DNA from: Pseudomonadota bacterium
Lineage (GTDB): Bacteria > Pseudomonadota > Gammaproteobacteria > Burkholderiales > Gallionellaceae
Reading direction: 5' to 3'
Assembly (NCBI GenBank): GCA_021783855.1
Contig: JAJXTL010000001.1
Coordinates: 1 to 64,000, forward strand
DNA: 64,000 nt
Every line of letters begins with the position of its first letter. The stretch's first letter is position 1. A model generated the notes under the pieces. That model was not told where the DNA came from. It saw only the letters and a list, made by a program, of their open reading frames with translations, and made no database searches. Below are positions 7,939-51,808 of the stretch, in pieces. The position numbers and the translations under genes were made by a program.

Positions 7939-8418
7939 ATGATGAGCAACAGCCAGCATGTTTTTTATAGCGAGGAAAGTTACACGCCCGAGGAGTCGGT
8001 TGGTTACCTGATGCGCGGTGCTTGGCAGGCGCTGCTGAAAAATATCGATGCCGAGATGCAGACGCTGGATTTGACCGGCATGCAGTGGGGGCCTCTGTTG
8101 TTGATCGCAAAAGGCTCGTGCCATACGGTGGCGGGTTGCGCGCGCGCAAGTTACAGCGACAGCGGTGCGATGACGCGCATGCTGGACAGGCTGGAGAGCA
8201 AGGGTTTGTTGTGCCGTGTTCGCAGCGAGGAGGACAGACGAGTGGTTAATCTTGAGTTAACCAGGGCGGGGCAAGACATCTCCAAACAGATTCCGGCTCA
8301 TCTGGTAAAGGTGCTGAACAAGCATTTGCAGGGTTTTAGCAAGGCGGAGTTCGATCTGTTCAAAAATATGCTGAGACGCTTTACTGAAAACGGCAACCCT
8401 CCTCCGGAGGCGGCATGA
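7939..8418 (+). CDS. MarR-family transcriptional regulator
   Basis: 159 residues; ATG at 7939 (or 7942) after AAGG. A winged helix-turn-helix at about 60-115 ends in the wing signature SEEDRRVVNLELT. It heads a four-gene operon: its stop overlaps the start of the outer-membrane factor gene by four bases. The EmrR-like position suggests it represses this efflux operon and is released by a small aromatic ligand (inference from the family). Confidence 0.9.
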   Translation: MMSNSQHVFYSEESYTPEESVGYLMRGAWQALLKNIDAEMQTLDLTGMQWGPLLLIAKGSCHTVAGCARASYSDSGAMTRMLDRLESKGLLCRVRSEEDRRVVNLELTRAGQDISKQIPAHLVKVLNKHLQGFSKAEFDLFKNMLRRFTENGNPPPEAA

Positions 8419-9872
8419 GCGTAGCGCAATGGATGCTCAGGCTGAGTCTTGCCGGCGCGTTGCTGTTGTCGGGTTGCGCAAATTTTTCCGGAATAGCAAC
8501 TCAGTCGACCATGATGGTGCCGCATACGCTGAACGACACGCGTCAGCCCGATACGACGGTCTTTCCGCAGCAGTATTGGTGGAAAAGATTTGCTGACAGC
8601 AGGCTGGATGCCTTGATTTCACAGGCGATAGCAAAAAATCACAGCTTAAAAGTCGTGCAAAGCCGCATCGCTGGCGCACAGGCACTCGAAGAGGCAACCG
8701 ACAGTGCGCGTTATCCGCAGGTAAGTGCCGGCGTACAATCGACGCGCGAACACTTGAGCGCGAACGGTTATTTTCCGCCCCCGCTGGGCGGCAGCCAGAT
8801 AACGATGAGCTCGGCCAGCATTTCCGGGCAGTGGCAGATCGACTGGTTCGGCAAACAACGGGCGGCACTCAACGCGGCGATCGGGCAGACGCGCGCAGCG
8901 CAGGCCGATATGCAAGCCGCGCAGGTGGTACTGGCGGCTTCCGTCGCCTCGCAATATTTCACTCTGGCGCGCTTGCAGGAGCAGCAGCAGATCAGGCAGG
9001 CGTTGCTGCAACAAAGCGAACATAATGCCCGTCTGATTAATCAACGTGTGGCGGCCGGGCTCGATACCACATTGGTGCAGCGTCAAACACAGGCCCAGAC
9101 GCCTCAAATACGACGTGATTTGGCGGCATTGACCGAGCAGGTCGCAATATCCAGACATGCACTGGCCGTGTTGATAGGCGCGGAACCAGGTGAGACCGAT
9201 CAATTGGCGGCACGCCTGCCGTCCGACATGCTGGCTGATGTACCCGAACAGCTCCCGGCTGAATTGCTGGGCCATCGCGCGGATGTGGCAGCTGCGCGCT
9301 GGCGGGTGGAGAGCGAATTGCAGAGTGCCAGAGAAGCACGTGCCGCCTTCTATCCCAATCTCAATCTCACCGCATTCGCAGGTTTCGAGGCTATCGGCCT
9401 GTCGCAATGGTTCCGTACGGACAGCCGCACCATGGGAGTCGGGCCTGCCATCAGTTTGCCAATTTTTAATGCGGGACAATTGCGCGCCCAGTTGAAGGGA
9501 CGCACGGTACAAGTCGATGCAGCCATAGAAACGTATAACGCGACCGTGTTGAATGCGCTGCGGGAAGTGGCCGACAAACTGGCGTCCCGGCAGGCGCTGC
9601 AAACGCAATTGCAGGAACAAAAGAGCGTGATGATGCAACTGGACGCGGCCTGTGAGCTGGCAAAAGCAAGGTATCAGAGTGGACTCACAAATTACTTAAC
9701 CGTGCTGGGTGCGGAAAATGCACAGTTGCTGCAACAAAGCATCCTGATTGATTTGCAGGCGCGCGCATTCGATGTGGATGTGGGGCTGATGCTGGCCTTG
9801 GGTGGCGGCTATGTCTCATCCGCCATACCTGTGTCAAAATCCCTGGCAAAAGAAAGTTCTCAAAATGAGTGA
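8415..9872 (+). CDS. Outer-membrane efflux lipoprotein, NodT/OprM family
   Basis: 485 residues with a lipoprotein signal peptide (hydrophobic core LAGALLL and lipobox LSGC, Cys about residue 21). Two TolC-type outer-membrane efflux repeats follow, the second beginning with the conserved AREARAAFYPNLNLTA. It forms the outer channel of a tripartite pump. It starts inside the marR stop, and its own stop overlaps the adaptor start. Length and layout are normal for the NodT subfamily. Confidence 0.93.
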   Translation: MSVAQWMLRLSLAGALLLSGCANFSGIATQSTMMVPHTLNDTRQPDTTVFPQQYWWKRFADSRLDALISQAIAKNHSLKVVQSRIAGAQALEEATDSARYPQVSAGVQSTREHLSANGYFPPPLGGSQITMSSASISGQWQIDWFGKQRAALNAAIGQTRAAQADMQAAQVVLAASVASQYFTLARLQEQQQIRQALLQQSEHNARLINQRVAAGLDTTLVQRQTQAQTPQIRRDLAALTEQVAISRHALAVLIGAEPGETDQLAARLPSDMLADVPEQLPAELLGHRADVAAARWRVESELQSAREARAAFYPNLNLTAFAGFEAIGLSQWFRTDSRTMGVGPAISLPIFNAGQLRAQLKGRTVQVDAAIETYNATVLNALREVADKLASRQALQTQLQEQKSVMMQLDAACELAKARYQSGLTNYLTVLGAENAQLLQQSILIDLQARAFDVDVGLMLALGGGYVSSAIPVSKSLAKESSQNE

Positions 9873-43022: not shown

Positions 43023-43271
43023 ATGAATTTATTGCGGCAATTGTGTCAAGGCGCGATTTAAGCACAAAGCAGCCTGCACGGCGAAATTAAATGCAAAATA
43101 CGGCACAAATCCTCCCGAATTATGCAGAAATTCTAAACCGGTGTTGACTTCAAGATGCCTTTGCGAGTCAGCAGATGCCGGCGTTGCCCCGCACCTTCAA
43201 CCGAACTGCATCCACTGATTTGCGTTACTGCGTCTGCTTTCATCGGTGCTCATCATTCATTGCGTCAAATC

Positions 43272-43289
43272 TGTCTCTTCCGAGAGACA
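43272..43289. promoter_or_regulatory. GlrR-type upstream activating site 1
   Basis: An exact TGTC-N10-GACA, at the centre of an 8-base perfect hairpin (CTGTCTCT / AGAGACAG, 43271-43290). The enterobacterial response regulator GlrR binds TGTC-N10-GACA. The site lies about 180 bases upstream of the opgH sigma-54 promoter, a normal distance for an enhancer. Confidence 0.55.
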
Positions 43290-43350
43290 GTCATAAATAC
43301 CTTATTTTTCATAATGTTAACAGCATTGACCGCATATTTTTGCAATGGGG

Positions 43351-43368
43351 TGTCGCCGTCAGGCAACA
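43351..43368. promoter_or_regulatory. GlrR-type upstream activating site 2 (one mismatch)
   Basis: TGTC-N10-AACA, one base off TGTC-N10-GACA, inside an inverted repeat (GGTGT-GCC / GGC-ACACC, 43349-43370). It is 79 bases downstream of site 1 and about 100 bases upstream of the sigma-54 promoter. Confidence 0.45.
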
Positions 43369-43465
43369 CCTTGCCGCGACCTGGAGTGCTCGCCAACGAA
43401 TTTTTCCGTTTAAACATAACTAAAAAATATTATTAATCAATTAGATAAATACTATAACGCTGTTC

Positions 43466-43480
43466 TGGCCTGATACTTGC
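43466..43480 (+). promoter_or_regulatory. Sigma-54 promoter of opgH
   Basis: TGGCCTGATACTTGC matches TGGC-N7-TTGC with the required GG to GC spacing. Predicted start near 43492, 19 bases before the opgH ATG. An AT-rich stretch with AATCAA at 43435-43440 just upstream resembles an IHF site, as is usual for enhancer-dependent promoters. The rest of the 488-base gap (43023-43510) shows no gene. Confidence 0.65.
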
Positions 43481-43510
43481 TTCAGTGGCGGCAGAACATC
43501 ACTACATACC

Positions 43511-45412
43511 ATGGACATGAACCGACAAGACACCCTGACCGTAACCCGGTCCACGAAGACTGCGCCTCCCATCCATCGCGGCAGCATGTCGCCACGTCCC
43601 TGGACTGGCTTCTGGCGCGGCCTTTGGCGGGCACTGTTTAGCAGAGCTGTTTTAAATCAGGGAGCAGATTATCCTCTTCCCTCCTGGAAAGGGGCTGCTT
43701 CTGTGCGTCGAATGGCCTTGACGACGCTCGTAGTCGCCAGTGCTGCCGTCGCCGCCTGCCTCCTTTACCGCACTGAGACAGTCGGCAGCGCACACCCGGT
43801 TCTGCATTTCATTCAGCTGGGGCTGTTTGCTTTGCTGTTGGGTTGGGTGACGGCGGGTTTTGTGACCGCGCTGATGGGATTATGGGTGCTGTGGCGCCCT
43901 GACCCGCATGCACTGTCTCTCGATGTGGCTCGTCGCCAGGCTTTGAGTCACGATGCACGTACGGCCATCATCATGCCGATCTGCAATGAGCCTGTCGCCT
44001 CTGTGTTTGCGGGATTGCGCGCGACCTGCGAATCCCTGGCGGACAGCGAGGGGGCCGGGCTATTCGATGTATATGTTCTGTCCGACACCTACGACCCCGT
44101 CTTGCGCGTCCAGGAGCTGAACGCCTGGTCTGCCCTGCAAGACCATCTGGGTGATCGTTGCCGTCTATACTACCGGCTGCGCGAGCGCCGCACCCGCCGC
44201 AAGGCAGGGAATGTGGCGGATTTCTGCCGCCGCTGGGGACGTAATTATCGCTACATGGTGGTGCTCGATGCGGACAGCGTGATGACTGGGGAGACCATCA
44301 CCATGCTGGTTCGCATGATGGAAGCGTACCCGAAAGCGGGTATCATCCAGACCGCGCCTCGTGCCTGCGGCGTGCAGACCTTGCATGCCCGAGCCCAGCA
44401 GTTTGCCGGACGGGTGGTGGGACGTTTGTTCACTGCCGGTATGATGTATTGGCAATTGGGTGAATCCCATTATTGGGGGCATAACGCCATCATCCGCATC
44501 GAACCATTCATGAAGCATTGCGCACTGGCCAAGTTACCCGGTTGCGGCGGGCTTTCGGGTGAAATCCTGTCGCACGATTTCGTGGAAGCGGCGCTGATGC
44601 GCCGTGCCGGTTATTACACCTGGCTCACCACTGATCTGGAAGGCAGTTACGAGCAGCAACCATCCAACCTGATGGAAGAACTCCAGCGCGACCGCCGCTG
44701 GTGTCAAGGCAATCTGATGAACTTTCGTCTCATCACCGAGCCGGGTTTCCAGCCCGTTCATCGGGCCATGTTGTTCACGGGCGCCATGGCTTACGTTTCG
44801 GCTCCGTTGTGGCTGGGCTTTCTTCTGGTCAGTTTAAGTTTGCGGCTGCTGGAACCCCACACGGGATCGACAGGACTTTTTGCATATCTGGCAATATCGC
44901 CCCAGTTGGAATGGTTGTGGGGGCTAACCCTGACTCTGTTGTTTTTGCCGCGCGTGCTGGCGGTAGCCGCAATTCTGCTTCGTGGAGAACAGGCGACTTA
45001 TGGCGGCAGTGCGGCATTGATCAAAAGCTCCATCCTGGAAGCCATTTTGTCCGCTTTGCAGGCGCCTATCCGCATGATGGCTCATACGCTGTTCGTGGTC
45101 ACGGCGCTGACCGGACTGAATCTGGAATGGAAGTCTCCTATGCGTGAAGCACACTCTGTTTTATGGCGCGATGCGCTACTCCGGTTTGTGCCCATCATGA
45201 TCACTGTTGCCTTGGGTCTGACGGCGACATTTCAAATGCATCACGATGCGGTATGGTGGCTGCTGCCCGTAGGCTTGCCCCTGCTACTGGCGGCCCCTCT
45301 GACGGTGTTGACCAGCGAATCCCGTTGGGGACTATCATTGCGTCGTCGTTTGTGGCTGCTCACGCCGGAAGAGCGCACGACTCCAGTCGTCCTGCTACGT
45401 GCTTGGGCATGA
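43511..45412 (+). CDS. opgH: Glucans biosynthesis glucosyltransferase OpgH
   Basis: 633 residues, an inner-membrane GT2 enzyme that polymerises glucose from UDP-glucose into osmoregulated periplasmic glucans. Two N-terminal membrane segments (about 68-90 and 100-125), then the catalytic domain: TAIIMPICNEP, VVLDADSVM (DxD), SHDFVEAALMRRAGY and QRDRRWCQGNLMN (QxxRW), then about five to six more membrane segments. It is some 200 residues shorter than E. coli OpgH, lacking most of the N- and C-terminal extensions. A second ATG lies two codons in. It precedes the opgG/D-type gene, the reverse of the E. coli opgGH order. Confidence 0.93.
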   Translation: MDMNRQDTLTVTRSTKTAPPIHRGSMSPRPWTGFWRGLWRALFSRAVLNQGADYPLPSWKGAASVRRMALTTLVVASAAVAACLLYRTETVGSAHPVLHFIQLGLFALLLGWVTAGFVTALMGLWVLWRPDPHALSLDVARRQALSHDARTAIIMPICNEPVASVFAGLRATCESLADSEGAGLFDVYVLSDTYDPVLRVQELNAWSALQDHLGDRCRLYYRLRERRTRRKAGNVADFCRRWGRNYRYMVVLDADSVMTGETITMLVRMMEAYPKAGIIQTAPRACGVQTLHARAQQFAGRVVGRLFTAGMMYWQLGESHYWGHNAIIRIEPFMKHCALAKLPGCGGLSGEILSHDFVEAALMRRAGYYTWLTTDLEGSYEQQPSNLMEELQRDRRWCQGNLMNFRLITEPGFQPVHRAMLFTGAMAYVSAPLWLGFLLVSLSLRLLEPHTGSTGLFAYLAISPQLEWLWGLTLTLLFLPRVLAVAAILLRGEQATYGGSAALIKSSILEAILSALQAPIRMMAHTLFVVTALTGLNLEWKSPMREAHSVLWRDALLRFVPIMITVALGLTATFQMHHDAVWWLLPVGLPLLLAAPLTVLTSESRWGLSLRRRLWLLTPEERTTPVVLLRAWA

Positions 45413-45473: not shown

Positions 45474-47081
45474 ATGTCTGAACTCAATCGTCGCCAATTC
45501 CTTGGCTTGCTGGCCACGGCCGCTGCCTCGGCAGCCTTGCCCTGGTCTGATGCCATGGCGGCTGACACAGGATTGGCACTGGGTATTGCAACTGCTTTTT
45601 CCTGGGAGGGATTGATAACGGAAGCCCGTCATCTGGCAAGGCAAGCCTATCGACCCGCATCTCAACCCAGTGCCGGCGTGCTCGAACAAATCGACTGGGA
45701 GGCACACGGGAAAATTCGCTTCAAGCCGGAGGATGCACTGTTCTCCGGCGGGCCGGGACAGTATCCCATTGCATTCTTTCATCCGGGACGCTTTTTTCAG
45801 TCTCCGGTACAGATGTACCGACTTGATAGTTTTTCTGATACAACACAAGATCAGTTTATCGCGCGCGAAATTTTATATGACAAACGCCATTTCAAAATGC
45901 CTGCCGACAGCCCCGCTCAACGCCTGGGGGCAGAGACTGGATATGCGGGCTTTCGCATTCAGGAAAGTCGGTCCGGCGACCAGTCCAGGCTGGATTGGCA
46001 GCATAACGACTGGGCCGCATTTCTGGGTGCATCCTATTTTCGCGCCATTGGCGACGAATACCAGTACGGCCTTTCGGCACGGGGCATTGCCATCAACACG
46101 GTAGAGCAGAATGCGCCCGAAGAATTTCCCGCCTTCACCCGATTCTATTTCGATCCCCCCCAGGAAGGTTCCGACACGATGACCGTTTACGCCCTGCTGG
46201 ATGGCCCCAGTATTGCCGGCGCCTACCGCTTTGCCATGACGCGAGAGGCAGGCGTCGTGATGGACATCGAGGCTAACCTGTTTGTGCGCAAGAATATTGC
46301 CCGCTTCGGCATTGCGCCGGCCACGTCGATGTACTGGTTCTCGGAAAAGGACAAGGCTTTTCAGATTGACTGGCGGCCTGAGGTGCATGATTCGGATGGA
46401 CTGGCTATGTGGACAGGTGCCGATGAACATATCTGGCGCCCCCTCATTGCCTCCAGGGAGATGATCAACGTTTCGGCTTTTGCTGACAACAACCCGCGCG
46501 GATTCGGCCTGATGCAGCGCGAACGCCATTTCGACGAGTATCTGGACGCTGTCCATTATGAACGCCGCCCCAGCCTGTGGATTGAACCGCTGGAAGGCTG
46601 GGGCGAGGGTTCGGTGCAGTTGGTCGAACTGCTCACGGAAGAAGAGCTCTACGACAACGTGGTCGCGATGTGGGTGCCGCTTGAAAAAGCCCGTGCGGGT
46701 AACAGCTATCGCTTGCGCTACCGCCTGCACTGGCGAGCGGATGAACCTTTTAAAATCAGTCTGGCGCGCTGTGTGGCGACTCGTATCGGGCGCGGCGGCG
46801 AGCCGGCAAAGCGCCCCCCCGGCGCGCATAAATTCGTGGTGGAATTCAAAGGAGGCGCACTCGATCAGCTTCCGTCGGGCACGATACCCGAAGCGGTGTT
46901 GACAGCTACGGGTGGCAGGATCTCGAACGTGATGACCGAAGCGGTTCCCGACGGCAAACCCGGACACTGGCGCGCCTTTTTTGATTTGGCTGCGCAGGAC
47001 ACCGTTGAAATCCGCCTTTTTCTTAAGGCGGTTTCGCAAACGCTAACCGAAACCTGGCTCTACCAGTTTCATCCTGCCTGA
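45474..47081 (+). CDS. Periplasmic glucan biosynthesis protein, OpgG/OpgD family
   Basis: 535 residues. The N-terminus is a twin-arginine signal (NRRQFLGLLATAAASAALP, cleavage after DAMA), which is the OpgD feature; OpgG proteins use Sec signals. The mature part is the all-beta OpgG/D fold with SRSGDQSRLDW, YFRAIGDEYQYGLSARGIAI, FYFDPPQEGSDTM and PLIASREMINVSAF. It acts on the nascent glucan in the periplasm with OpgH, the gene just upstream (61-base gap). Confidence 0.92.
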   Translation: MSELNRRQFLGLLATAAASAALPWSDAMAADTGLALGIATAFSWEGLITEARHLARQAYRPASQPSAGVLEQIDWEAHGKIRFKPEDALFSGGPGQYPIAFFHPGRFFQSPVQMYRLDSFSDTTQDQFIAREILYDKRHFKMPADSPAQRLGAETGYAGFRIQESRSGDQSRLDWQHNDWAAFLGASYFRAIGDEYQYGLSARGIAINTVEQNAPEEFPAFTRFYFDPPQEGSDTMTVYALLDGPSIAGAYRFAMTREAGVVMDIEANLFVRKNIARFGIAPATSMYWFSEKDKAFQIDWRPEVHDSDGLAMWTGADEHIWRPLIASREMINVSAFADNNPRGFGLMQRERHFDEYLDAVHYERRPSLWIEPLEGWGEGSVQLVELLTEEELYDNVVAMWVPLEKARAGNSYRLRYRLHWRADEPFKISLARCVATRIGRGGEPAKRPPGAHKFVVEFKGGALDQLPSGTIPEAVLTATGGRISNVMTEAVPDGKPGHWRAFFDLAAQDTVEIRLFLKAVSQTLTETWLYQFHPA

Positions 47082-47283: not shown

Positions 47284-48096
47284 ATGAGAGTTGGAATCAT
47301 TGGTTTCGGTAAAACAGGGAGGGCTGTCGCTTCGGTATTGCTGGAGTCTAAAAAGACCAATCTGCAATGGGTGGTTCGTCAGTCGAGATTGCTTGAACAC
47401 CGTTCTGTTCCCGAGTTCCTGGGGCTTGCATCAGACGAACCGGGCTTGATTTATACAAAGGACGAATTTACTGCCTCTGAATTACTCGAACGGTATCCTG
47501 TTGATGCGATTGTTGATTTCTCCTCAGAAACGGGGTTGGACTACTACGGTGCAGAGGCCGCAAAACGGGGCATTATCATCGTCAGTGCCGTATCACAATA
47601 TTCTGACGAGAAAATTGGGTTGATTCACCAACTCGCACAGCATACATGTGTACTGCATTCGCCCAATATTACTCTGGGCATTAATTTTCTTCTCATCGCT
47701 GCCAAGATACTCAAGAACATTGCACCTTATGCTGATATTGAGGTAATTGAGGAGCATTTTAAGGCTAAGTCTGAGATATCAGGTACGGCCAATATCATTG
47801 CGCGTGAGCTGAATCTGCCTGAAGAAAGCATTAAGTCAGTGAGGGCTGGCGGCATAATCGGGGTGCATGAAATTTTGTTTGGTTTTCCTTACCAGACAGT
47901 GCGTCTCAAGCATGAGTCCATTACCCGCGAAGCCTTTGGGAATGGCATTTTGTTTTCGTTGGGAAATTTACAAGGAAAACCGAAGGGGATGTACAGCATG
48001 GAAGATTTGCTGCTGCCTTATTTTAAACTGAAAGAACCTGAGCCGGAAATTATCACGGCCAGGAAAAAGCCGTGGTGGCAATTTTGGCTCAAGTAA
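47284..48096 (+). CDS. DapB-like dehydrogenase, probably not the lysine enzyme
   Basis: 270 residues. N-terminal Rossmann motif GIIGFGKTGRAV and the C-terminal DapB catalytic-domain layout (VIEEHFKAKSEISGTAN, then GGIIGVHEILFGFP). True DapB has HHxxKxDAPSGTA; here the second histidine is Phe and DAPSGTA is SEISGTA. That suggests a different substrate. A Trp-rich basic tail (KKPWWQFWLK) follows. A GGAG ribosome site precedes ATG 47284. It lies between the glucan genes and the glr-type locus. Confidence 0.75.
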   Translation: MRVGIIGFGKTGRAVASVLLESKKTNLQWVVRQSRLLEHRSVPEFLGLASDEPGLIYTKDEFTASELLERYPVDAIVDFSSETGLDYYGAEAAKRGIIIVSAVSQYSDEKIGLIHQLAQHTCVLHSPNITLGINFLLIAAKILKNIAPYADIEVIEEHFKAKSEISGTANIIARELNLPEESIKSVRAGGIIGVHEILFGFPYQTVRLKHESITREAFGNGILFSLGNLQGKPKGMYSMEDLLLPYFKLKEPEPEIITARKKPWWQFWLK

Positions 48097-48218: not shown

Positions 48219-49598
48219 TTACGTCGGCAAGTTTTGGGATTGTCTGATCAACGAAGGATCGAGCTGGTGTTTTTGCAGTAACTTGTAAAATTCAGTACGG
48301 TTTCTCTTTGATAGTTTTGCCGCCTGAGTGACGTTTCCTTCCGTGATTTTGAGAATGCGGATTAAATAATCTCGTTCAAAACGTTTTTTTGCCTCCTCAA
48401 GCGAAACCAGCATTCCTTCTTCCTGATGAATGGTATGTTGAACCAGCACCGACGAGATCAGCGGTGTCGTACACAGGACTACGCTTTGTTCGACGACATT
48501 CAGAAGTTGCCTGACATTGCCTGGCCATGGCGCCTTGATCAGGGTTTCCATTGCTTCCAGAGAAAACCCATTGATTTTCCGGTTATATTTTTCGGAAAGA
48601 ATCGATAGAAAATACATGGCCAGTAGCGGAATATCTTCTCTGCGCTGGGACAGCGGGGGCATTGCCAGTTCTACGACGTTGAGGCGGTAATAGATGTCCT
48701 CACGGAAGTTGCCCGCTGCAATTTCCGCTTTCAGATCGCGGTGGGTCGCAGAGATGATACGCACATCAAGAGGTATGATTTGCGTGGAACCGACGGGGGT
48801 CACCTGCCTTTCCTGGAGCACGCGCAACAGTTTGCTTTGCAGCGTAAGGGGCATATCGCCAATTTCATCCAGAAAGATAGTGCCGCCTATCGCCGACTGA
48901 AACAATCCCTTGTGATCGCGGACGGCGCCCGTGAATGCTCCTTTGGCATGTCCGAAGAGTTCAGATTCAAGCAGCTGTTCGGGAATGGCGGCACAGTTGA
49001 TGGCTACAAATTGGCGCTGAGATCGCTGACTTGCATTGTGTATGGCGCGTGCAAGCAACTCCTTGCCGGTTCCGCTGTCACCCCGGATCAGCACGCTCGC
49101 ATCTCCTTCAGCCACCAGCTTGGCCTTGCTCAAAACATCTTCCATTGCGCCGCTTTGGGTAACGATGTTTGCGCGCCAGTTGTCGGTTCCCGAGGGCGCG
49201 GCAGCAGACGAAAACTGGAGCGCTCTTGCGATATGGTCCAGCAGCACCCCGCTGTCGAACGGTTTGGTCAAATAACCGAACAGGCCGCGCTGCGTGGCAC
49301 TGACGGCATCCGGGATGGTGCCGTGTGCGGTCAGCATGATGACGGGGAGTGCGGGAAAGTTTTTATGTATATGCTCAAACAGAGCCATTCCGTCCATGCC
49401 ATGCATGCGCATATCGGTTATTACGAGCTGGGGTCTTCTCATCTCCATGGATTTGATCGCAGCATCGGCACTGTCTGCCGATTCGACCTCGAATCCTGCG
49501 GAGACAAGCCGCATGGACAGCAGCTGTAACAAGTCTGCATCATCGTCTACGATCAATATTCTATGGGGAGGTGAAGTTGTTCGTGGCGACGCGTTCAT
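48219..49598 (-). CDS. glrR: Sigma-54-dependent response regulator, GlrR/QseF type
   Basis: 459 residues. Receiver domain (about 12-125) with phospho-Asp in LVITDMRMHGMDG; AAA+ activator domain (about 148-385) with Walker A GDSGTGKE and the sigma-54 contact loop GAFTGA; C-terminal Fis-type helix-turn-helix (about 415-450, GNVTQAAKLSKRNRTEFYKL). It is last in an operon after a kinase and a small lipoprotein, the same order as glrK-qseG-glrR. Overlaps the lipoprotein gene by four bases. Candidate target: the opgH promoter. Confidence 0.9.
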   Translation of the reverse strand: MNASPRTTSPPHRILIVDDDADLLQLLSMRLVSAGFEVESADSADAAIKSMEMRRPQLVITDMRMHGMDGMALFEHIHKNFPALPVIMLTAHGTIPDAVSATQRGLFGYLTKPFDSGVLLDHIARALQFSSAAAPSGTDNWRANIVTQSGAMEDVLSKAKLVAEGDASVLIRGDSGTGKELLARAIHNASQRSQRQFVAINCAAIPEQLLESELFGHAKGAFTGAVRDHKGLFQSAIGGTIFLDEIGDMPLTLQSKLLRVLQERQVTPVGSTQIIPLDVRIISATHRDLKAEIAAGNFREDIYYRLNVVELAMPPLSQRREDIPLLAMYFLSILSEKYNRKINGFSLEAMETLIKAPWPGNVRQLLNVVEQSVVLCTTPLISSVLVQHTIHQEEGMLVSLEEAKKRFERDYLIRILKITEGNVTQAAKLSKRNRTEFYKLLQKHQLDPSLIRQSQNLPT

Positions 49599-50143
49599 GG
49601 CTGGTCTCGGTGAGTCTGATTAATTTCAAAGTCCTTGATGGCGTCGATTTTTCCCTGAAGAGATTTGGCATGGGCCTTTTCAGTTGCGAGTGCTTTTGCA
49701 AGATCGCTCAATGCCTCGTCTGTTTGTTCCTGCCTGGCAAGCAGCATACCCAGCAGGAGGGCAAATTCATGCAGATCGGATGGAGAGGCTGTGGTGCTGT
49801 CGGGCAAGGTTTTCAGAAGATCGATTGCCGCTGCGGTGTCGTGGAAAGGATTGTTGGGCAAGGTCAGCAGTATCGCCAATTTGATGCGATCACGGTTGCT
49901 TCCGGTTGTCGAGAAGTTCAGGCTGATAGTATTGTATTCACGGGCGATGTCAGGCGCGGGTAGCCCGCGAAGGAGAGAATAGTATCGTATGACTTCATTG
50001 AGTCTGAGGTCGGTATCCGGGGGTGGAGGGCAGGAAACGACATCCGGAACAGGCTGGTGAGCGGTCACGCTGGCACATCCGGCAAGCGTGGTCGTCACCG
50101 CGAGCGCACTCAGTATCAGGATTATCCGAATCTTGCTCTTCAT
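49595..50143 (-). CDS. QseG-like lipoprotein
   Basis: 182 residues with a lipoprotein signal (LSALAVTTTLAGC). The mature part contains CPPPPDTDLRLNEVIRYYSL and a C-terminal helical region with repeated Ala/Lys/Glu. In enterobacteria QseG sits between the kinase and regulator genes and activates the kinase GlrK from the periplasmic side of the envelope; position and signal fit that role. Sequence similarity itself is modest, so the assignment rests on context. Overlaps both neighbours by four bases. Confidence 0.75.
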   Translation of the reverse strand: MKSKIRIILILSALAVTTTLAGCASVTAHQPVPDVVSCPPPPDTDLRLNEVIRYYSLLRGLPAPDIAREYNTISLNFSTTGSNRDRIKLAILLTLPNNPFHDTAAAIDLLKTLPDSTTASPSDLHEFALLLGMLLARQEQTDEALSDLAKALATEKAHAKSLQGKIDAIKDFEINQTHRDQP

Positions 50144-51615
50144 TCTGTAGCCGTGATGTGATTCAGCGGAAAGATTACCCGGAAGCAGGTGCCTTCGTGA
50201 TGTTCAGTCAACTCGATCGTTCCGCCGTGTGCCAAAGTGTATTCGCGAGCTATCGATAAACCGAGTCCTGTTCCTCTGATGTGAGATTGAGGTGCCTTAC
50301 GCCCCTGATAAAAAGCCTCGAAAATTTTTCCCTTGTCCAGAGTATCTATACCCGGGCCGAAATCAACTACATCCAGTCTTACGGTATTATCGACGACCGC
50401 CGCCTGGATTTTGATGAGCCCGCCAAAGGGTGAATATTTGATCGCATTGGATAGAAGGTTGTCCACAATAATTTTGAGTTTTTGTTCGTCACACTCCATC
50501 GATAAATCAGGACACAGCAGCTCGATTTCCAGCGATTTATTCGTTATGGACAGATACTGGTCGCGTACGACCATCTCAAGAACCATCTTGAGCGCAACCG
50601 TCTGTTTCAGGAGCGCAACTTTTTCGTGCTGAATTGCGCTGAAGTTTAACAGGTCTTCGATCCTTTTCTGCAACTGAATGCTGTTGGTGAGAAGTATTCC
50701 GGCTATTTTGTCCTGCTTGACGGTGAGCTTCCCGGCAATGCCTTCCGAGAGAAGATTCGCTCCTTCCCGGATCGAGGTGAGCGGGGTCTTGAGTTCGTGA
50801 GAAACATGCTGAAGGAACGTGGATTTTTGATCCTCGATTTCCAGCAGGCGCAGGCGCATCCAGTTCAGCCTGTCCCCCAGCTGTTGCAAATCCTGAGGTC
50901 CGTCTATCCTGATGGAATTCGACAGATTTCCATTTCCCATGGATCGGATCGCCTCATCAATTTGCCGGATGGGTCTGGTAATCAATATGGAGAATCCGAA
51001 AGCCAGAAAGATCACAAAGGGTATCAGTCCGGCCAGCAGCCAGACGATATTTCTGTTTGCCTGATCAGCCATCCCCTGCATCGCTGCCACTTCCCGTTCA
51101 ATTGGCGCATCGCCATGGTTGAGAAAGGCTTGAGTCGATTCCATCAGAGGAGAGAAGTCTATATGCCATTGGCCCGTTTTTTTCTGAGACTGAGAGATTT
51201 TCGTCACATCGCGAAAAATTGCCGATTCGGCAGAGTCTATAACTTGCAAAAGCTGGCTTTGCCTGGAAGTGAGCGGGAGTGTATAAAGATTTTGCAGGGT
51301 GTCTCTGAACTTTTCGTGGCTTTGGTAATAATTTTTTAACAAAGAGCTGTCTGCCAGAATAGACGACAGTTTTACGCTGTGTTCCATCGTTGCCGCATGC
51401 TCAATCAAGGTGCGGCTAAAATGTGCGATCCGCTCCGCCTTGTAGACTACCTGTCGGTTTTGTTTTGAAAGCTGGTTAATGGATGCTGCGCTGTATACGA
51501 GCGAAAGGATCAACGGCAGGGAGGCCAGCAGAAAACCGGCTAAAATCAGTCCGGAAAAAGATTTTGGGTGCCACCCCAACAGTTTTTTGAAGGAGGCGGT
51601 GAGTTTATTGCTCAT
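50140..51615 (-). CDS. glrK: GlrK-like membrane sensor histidine kinase
   Basis: 491 residues from ATG 51615 (MSNKLTASF); the frame is open to 51663. A membrane segment near 22-43, a periplasmic helical sensor region with SLLKNYYQSHEKFRDTL, a second membrane segment near 195-215 and HAMP. The H-box is VSHELKTPLTSIREG, the N-box NLLSNAIKYSP, the G-boxes DFGPGID and GTGLGLSIAREY. It phosphorylates the GlrR-type regulator. All motifs are intact. Confidence 0.9.
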   Translation of the reverse strand: MSNKLTASFKKLLGWHPKSFSGLILAGFLLASLPLILSLVYSAASINQLSKQNRQVVYKAERIAHFSRTLIEHAATMEHSVKLSSILADSSLLKNYYQSHEKFRDTLQNLYTLPLTSRQSQLLQVIDSAESAIFRDVTKISQSQKKTGQWHIDFSPLMESTQAFLNHGDAPIEREVAAMQGMADQANRNIVWLLAGLIPFVIFLAFGFSILITRPIRQIDEAIRSMGNGNLSNSIRIDGPQDLQQLGDRLNWMRLRLLEIEDQKSTFLQHVSHELKTPLTSIREGANLLSEGIAGKLTVKQDKIAGILLTNSIQLQKRIEDLLNFSAIQHEKVALLKQTVALKMVLEMVVRDQYLSITNKSLEIELLCPDLSMECDEQKLKIIVDNLLSNAIKYSPFGGLIKIQAAVVDNTVRLDVVDFGPGIDTLDKGKIFEAFYQGRKAPQSHIRGTGLGLSIAREYTLAHGGTIELTEHHEGTCFRVIFPLNHITATE

Positions 51616-51808
51616 TGCGATGGGTGTGCTAATCGGTTGTGGCGCATGTCGTGAAAACGGCAATAAATTCGCAGACGGTTGCTGATCTTACCACTTCCGA
51701 AATGGCTGATAACAGAAAATCATGAATGAAGGACATATCCCGGGTGGTAATTTGCAACCCGTCAATACCATCGGTGCCGCGCTACGTTGATACACCCGCA
51801 GATAAAGT

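Follow-up and report, generated by a model that had tools for sequence, protein, structure and literature searches.

A conserved, probably GlrR-dependent sigma-54 promoter before the glucan synthase gene opgH in Gallionella-like bacteria and Comamonadaceae

The opgH locus and its upstream elements

The window, by which we mean the whole 64-kb stretch of DNA analysed, carries opgH with a set of putative regulatory elements before it, an opgG-type gene behind it and, on the opposite strand, the genes of a GlrK/GlrR-like two-component system. The features are as follows.

43272..43289, no strand assigned: UAS1, GlrR-type palindrome TGTCTCTTCCGAGAGACA, read directly from the sequence and kept in relatives
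43307..43319, plus strand: IHF-like box 1, TTTCATAATGTTA, between UAS1 and UAS2, placed by alignment
43351..43368, no strand assigned: UAS2, GlrR-type palindrome TGTCGCCGTCAGGCAACA, read directly from the sequence and kept in relatives
43435..43447, plus strand: IHF-like box 2, AATCAATTAGATA, one mismatch, 31 bp upstream of the -24 box
43466..43481, plus strand: sigma-54 promoter TGGCCTGATACTTGCT, exact -24/-12 spacing
43511..45412, plus strand: opgH, glucan glucosyltransferase of 633 aa, short class (NCBIfam NF003960)
45474..47081, plus strand: opgG/opgD-type periplasmic glucan protein gene (Pfam MdoG, 584.5 bits)
48219..49598, minus strand: glrR-type sigma-54 response regulator gene, the proposed activator (best NCBIfam match GlrR)
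49595..50143, minus strand: gene for a small protein with a lipobox, standing where qseG would be expected (by position; lipobox read by eye)
50140..51663, minus strand: glrK-type histidine kinase gene with HAMP, HisKA and HATPase domains (Pfam and operon position; true start uncertain)

The OpgH assignment is firm at the family level (910.2 bits against the NF003960 cut-off of 829), and opgG probably shares the opgH transcript. The closest OpgH relatives come from a MAG called Proteobacteria bacterium (L001; 96% identity), from Candidatus Gallionella acididurans (L015; 92% over 522 residues) and from two MAGs called Gallionella sp. (L003 and L006; 87% each); judged by these proteins, the window is Gallionella-like. 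A DapB-like gene (47284-48096; 93.6 against the DapB cut-off of 122) lies between opgG and glrR, a gene 97% identical to it also follows opgG in L015, and a ResA-like gene adjoins glrK.

The first-pass annotation had described a GlrR-type activator, a kinase and a QseG-like lipoprotein 5 kb downstream of the promoter. The positions hold, as does GlrR as the best family of the regulator; by contrast, the regulator scores below the GlrR cut-off, and the protein encoded at 49595-50143 gave no match to the QseG/YfhG family, its likeness to QseG being one of lipobox and position.

The two palindromes and the promoter were confirmed base for base. UAS1 is an exact TGTC-N10-GACA enclosed by CTGTCTCT/AGAGACAG; UAS2, starting 79 bp further on, reads TGTC-N10-AACA and is enclosed by GGTGTCGCC/GGCAACACC, its single mismatch still conforming to TGT-N12-ACA. 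Both lie inside inverted repeats, as had been proposed, that of UAS2 with one mismatch. The region thereby has the at least two UAS (TGTC-N10-GACA or TGT-N12-ACA) and the downstream -24/-12 sigma-54 promoter expected of a GlrR-dependent promoter. The intervening boxes were scored against WATCARNNNNTTR, which we take to be the IHF consensus: box 1 has two mismatches, a better-scoring match existing in the same interval, and for box 2 an equally good match is reported at 35 bp from the -24 box. Transcription would be expected to start at about 43491-43493, and the opgH ATG stands at 43511. A sigma-70-like match lies further upstream on the minus strand (43147-43119; one found, 0.9 expected). We found no catalogued RNA families or tRNAs in the window, and the sites can therefore not be ascribed to a catalogued RNA of the glmY kind.

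The combination, not its parts, exceeds chance

Taken singly, the elements lie within chance: UAS matches with at most one mismatch number 26 in the window against 21.5 expected, that at 43272 being the only exact one, and strict sigma-54 matches number 1 against 2.8 expected. The full combination is beyond chance. We defined a strict triple arrangement, with limits chosen after the sites had been seen, as two sites, each no more than one mismatch away from TGTC-N10-GACA and 55-90 bp from one another, with a promoter 40-120 bp beyond. It occurs at one place only on either strand of the 64-kb window, and in 19 of 20 opgH upstream regions (the window, L103 and 18 loci in the range L001-L021), against 0 of 500 dinucleotide shuffles for each region; Comamonadaceae were left out of this sample, the promoter there lying further upstream or before opgG. 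The one miss, L020, has a degenerate second site. A scan of both strands of 17 loci (270,524 bases) placed the arrangement before opgH in 16 and yielded one extra copy, in L008. Within 8275-9477 of that locus, this second UAS1-UAS2-sigma-54 promoter set precedes a 62-aa ORF that, by eye, resembles a truncated OpgH start, and the ORF after it resembles, also by eye, an MscS-type channel gene.

Alignment of the upstream regions of relatives, which the first-pass annotation had set as a check, largely favours the proposal: the two UAS, the promoter and an IHF-like box in each interval stand as conserved islands in sequence that is otherwise diverged and poorly alignable. IHF-like matches lie 16-18 bp after UAS1 in relatives, with an exact one in L010, and in 14 of 19 regions the interval between UAS2 and the promoter has its best match at 30-32 bp from the -24 box. 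The best match carries on average 1.3 mismatches in the first interval and 1.1 in the second, where mononucleotide shuffles gave 2.1 and 2.0.

Conservation before opgH in two groups

For a wider test we built a matrix from 34 sites upstream of opgH and their reverse complements (maximum score 25.6) and counted a locus as positive when a site scoring at least 13, one being enough, accompanied a sigma-54 promoter before opgH or opgG-opgH. The sample comprised 99 distinct short-class OpgH loci, repeats counted once, of which 96 had at least 230 bp of upstream DNA; L003, L015 and L018 had too little and were left out. Site and promoter occur together in 93 of the 96 loci and in none of 1117 control windows of the same loci, counts that are not independent events because the loci are related to one another. 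All 22 loci of a closer group, most of which supplied matrix sites, are positive, as are 71 of 74 in a distant group, mainly Comamonadaceae, that supplied none. Loci with two sites above the threshold number 20 of 22 in the closer group and 34 of 71 among the positive distant ones, and in every closer-group locus the -24 box lies 25-64 bp upstream of the opgH match. Among the misses, L068 has a promoter and two site-like palindromes with scores below threshold, L036 offers only 273 bp of upstream DNA, and before opgH of L050 (Caldimonas tepidiphila) neither site nor promoter was found. Taken together, a sigma-54 promoter of the glmY type, probably dependent on GlrR, is conserved before opgH in two groups of the order.

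In L024 and similar Variovorax-type loci the promoter stands about 300 bp before opgH and is followed by what looks, by eye, like a small reading frame of about 66 aa; a search of these loci with the window OpgG found no OpgG match.

Pattern searches free of a protein anchor were less discriminating. A one-site pattern matched in 56 of 150 genomes across the order, and its reversed control was also positive in some; by eye most matches looked like background, and we therefore turned to protein-anchored loci. In 10 relatives a two-site scan yielded 13 places, namely seven opgH/opgG promoters, two before a gene for a small exported protein (G002, G005) and four taken as background, and its pattern missed the opgH promoter in G002, G007 and G008; since the reversed control gave 17 places against these 13, the number alone is uninformative. 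In L189 and L194 (1435-1582) a GlrR-type site pair and a sigma-54 promoter precede a gene for a small Ala/Lys-rich exported protein, adjacent to a ResA-like gene.

The linked regulator is GlrR-type

The window regulator scores 608.5 bits against the NCBIfam GlrR equivalog cut-off of 763, with GlrR the best family by about 190 bits; on sequence it is GlrR-type, not a certified GlrR. It has the receiver, sigma-54 interaction and Fis-type HTH domains of such a regulator (HTH_8 at 19.4 against a gathering score of 22). Identity to E. coli GlrR is 55%, against 39-44% to NtrC, ZraR and AtoC, and the difference widens in the DNA-binding part (50% against 23-30%). There the helix core NRTEFYKLL, in what is presumably the GlrR recognition helix, is common to the window protein and E. 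coli GlrR and absent from NtrC, ZraR and AtoC; Comamonadaceae GlrR proteins read NRTEFYRLL. In the tree a branch with 100/100 support likewise set E. coli GlrR, together with 53 GlrR-type proteins that include the window's, apart from NtrC, ZraR and AtoC; these three proteins made up the outgroup, and the tree carried long-branch warnings, with E. coli GlrR itself a long branch. The sigma-54 gene rpoN scores above cut-off in seven of eight genomes examined, G006 having no full match.

The enterobacterial background on which the first-pass annotation drew, TGTC-N10-GACA as the GlrR site and glmY as a sigma-54 target, agrees with published accounts. GlrR is given the site TGTC(N)10GACA (PMC4987338), glmY is described as controlled by GlrR, IHF and sigma-54 (PMC6075780, PMC8745638), and QseF (GlrR), with IHF, as binding three TGT-N12-ACA sites at glmY and acting also at rpoE (PMC6075780). 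Applied to E. coli K-12 glmY, the opgH-derived matrix found two of the three TGTC-N10-GACA sites, at 24.0 and 21.9 of 25.6, one of them letter-identical to a training site (L011 UAS2), and missed the third, at 8.4.

Linkage and co-occurrence of glrR and opgH

In 83 of the 99 loci glrR lies on the same piece of DNA as opgH, and where more than 5 kb before and more than 7 kb after the opgH start are available it lies near opgH in 66 of 70, in several orders and orientations. The other four (L012, L016, L202 and L219) keep the promoter before opgH with glrR elsewhere in the genome (699-823 bits); L219 has one site only, and AGGC replaces TGGC in its promoter.

Co-variation of glrR with the sites, proposed earlier as a check, proved suggestive rather than clean. 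Eight of 11 genomes searched encode a GlrR orthologue (579-829 bits), and G407 (that of L050, 5.5 Mb) has neither a GlrR match nor a site before its short-class opgH; against this, the small 1.6-Mb assembly G412 (L010) has the promoter site and no GlrR match, and G324 (L020) yielded only a GlrR fragment of 318 bits. OpgH proteins outside the short class made up 16 of 24 OpgH matches, and we examined 15 such loci in 14 genomes. In five of these genomes (G017, G022, G069, G106 and G154) neither GlrR, at E <= 1e-100, nor a site plus promoter was found, G017 showing one site-like match without a promoter. The long class mostly lacks such a promoter despite GlrR in the genome: candidates appear in two of nine genomes, a set that includes G122 (partial GlrR match) and G108 (about 0.8 kb of readable upstream DNA). 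The candidate in G021 is good and stands 55 bp upstream of opgG; that of G015 is weaker and precedes an ORF the size of opgG.

GlrR-linked promoters across the order

Across the order we obtained 71 GlrR matches and examined 59 loci at a looser matrix limit (site at least 9). A site and sigma-54 promoter lie directly after glrR in 39 of the 59, six of which also have a match elsewhere or have it only elsewhere. The gene behind this promoter is opgH or opgG in four loci (L140, L153, L155 and L158); ten other next genes that we scanned encode a glycine zipper 2TM protein (L119), two BON plus EF-hand proteins (L129, L149), one BON protein (L132) and six products without a match. In L135, L139 and L141 short proteins beginning MKRFDT are encoded right behind the GlrR-type promoter that follows glrR, and that of L135 has no Pfam match. 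On the GlrR tree the opgH-linked proteins form two groups, requiring two changes, with L102 labelled as linked although its glrR and opgH sit on different contigs; a single gain may also be considered.

Interpretation

We think it highly likely, from these sequences, that 43272-43481 acts as a glmY-type sigma-54 promoter under activation by GlrR, driving opgH and probably opgG. The conserved combination, the linkage of glrR, the recovery of glmY sites by the matrix and the helix match lead us to propose that GlrK/GlrR very probably activates opgGH via sigma-54, a known promoter type on a new target. The control of glucan synthesis by GlrK/GlrR through sigma-54, as first suggested for this locus, gains further support from the four loci that retain the promoter away from glrR. 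Phosphorylated GlrR, whose gene lies 5 kb downstream together with those of its kinase and the QseG-like lipoprotein, would occupy UAS1 and UAS2, with IHF bending the stretch that separates these sites from the promoter. Through its AAA+ domain GlrR would next open the sigma-54 polymerase bound at TGGCCTGATACTTGCT, so that periplasmic glucan synthesis would be switched on while the envelope sensor is active. By analogy with E. coli, the whole would constitute an envelope-stress circuit. What the sequences show directly is the set of elements with its geometry and conservation, the linkage to glrR, a co-occurrence that is partial and the helix common to both GlrR proteins; phosphorylation of GlrR, its binding to the sites, bending by IHF, activation and the signal are inferred.

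Three other accounts were weighed. The sites and promoter might be real and serve a different sigma-54 activator, of the NtrC, ZraR, AtoC or PrsR type: several such activators exist in relatives, the window GlrR falls below its cut-off, and G412 has the promoter with no GlrR match. We consider this unlikely, given that a matrix trained before opgH fits the E. coli glmY sites, that glrR accompanies opgH in 66 of 70 loci, that the helix core is as in E. coli GlrR and unlike the three activators compared (NtrC, ZraR and AtoC), and that G407 lacks both GlrR and site. Less likely again is that the sites belong to glrR, through autoregulation or hitchhiking, with opgH a bystander. The promoters found directly after glrR in 39 of 59 loci, whichever gene comes next, speak for such an arrangement; the window promoter, however, points into opgH and is separated from glrR by 5 kb, four relatives keep it at opgH with glrR elsewhere, and the short distance of the -24 box from opgH holds in 22 of 22 closer-group loci.

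A last account, with the palindromes as terminators or repeat elements and the promoter as a chance match, is barely credible. It accords with single elements being within chance in the window; against it, no terminator-like site was found in 43030-43530, the combination is missing from shuffles and control windows, and the three elements are conserved with fixed geometry in relatives, an outcome that contradicts this account. GlrR activation of opgH remains our preferred reading.

A broader one, which we advance tentatively and regard as possible rather than probable, is that GlrK/GlrR is an envelope or osmotic homeostasis system, usually with one glmY-type promoter near its own genes, the driven gene being swapped between lineages: genes for glycine-zipper, BON and EF-hand proteins in several members of the order, glmY in enterobacteria, and opgH/opgG in two separate GlrR groups. 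In the opgH/opgG groups GlrK would sense a state of the periplasm that glucans put right, closing a feedback loop.

Relation to published work

Few regulators acting directly on periplasmic glucan synthesis have, to our knowledge, been described. We found no literature on opgH together with sigma 54, and none on such a promoter, by title and opening of the abstract, among papers combining osmoregulated periplasmic glucans with RpoN. Among the matches listed, glr and opg/mdo terms never occur together, one search containing no QseF and another no opgGH or mdoGH; GlrR combined with betaproteobacteria gave no match. In two sigma-54 surveys (PMC12316311, PMC8657755), a term search met no glucan, opgH, mdoH, GlrR or QseF. 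The view that a GlrK/GlrR-glucan circuit had not been described is consistent with the matches listed, drawn from a search that mostly excluded subscription papers.

GlrK/GlrR has been described chiefly in enterobacteria, where its targets are glmY and rpoE (PMC6075780). With a conserved promoter of the GlrR type at opgGH of Gallionella-like bacteria and Comamonadaceae, the system would acquire a non-enterobacterial physiological target, and culturable organisms would become available for tests; such wiring would also suggest that this two-component system changes its neighbouring target in the course of evolution.

Comparison with known systems

E. coli K-12 opgGH comprises the same glucan synthesis genes, but with opgG before opgH, and its piece of DNA has no GlrR-type site at a matrix score of at least 9. 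The nearer counterpart in regulatory layout is glmY. Both have TGTC-N10-GACA palindromes before a sigma-54 promoter, with a gap of 89 bp in glmY and 97 bp in the window; both show a candidate IHF-type box in each interval, with 31 bp between the second box and the -24 box, the matches to the IHF consensus being exact in both glmY intervals; and both lie near glrK-qseG-glrR. They differ in target, a small RNA in one and a glucan synthase gene in the other, in UAS spacing (63 bp in glmY, 79 bp in the window), in the third UAS of glmY, and in its first IHF-type box, whose strand and distance both differ from those of the opgH boxes. In addition, glmY has an overlapping sigma-70 promoter, according to PMC6075780, whereas none was found over the window sigma-54 promoter. 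The E. coli rpoE sigma-54 promoter, activated by QseF/GlrR, differs in that its target is a sigma factor; by its description in PMC6075780, it has in common that an envelope homeostasis gene is placed under GlrR and sigma-54.
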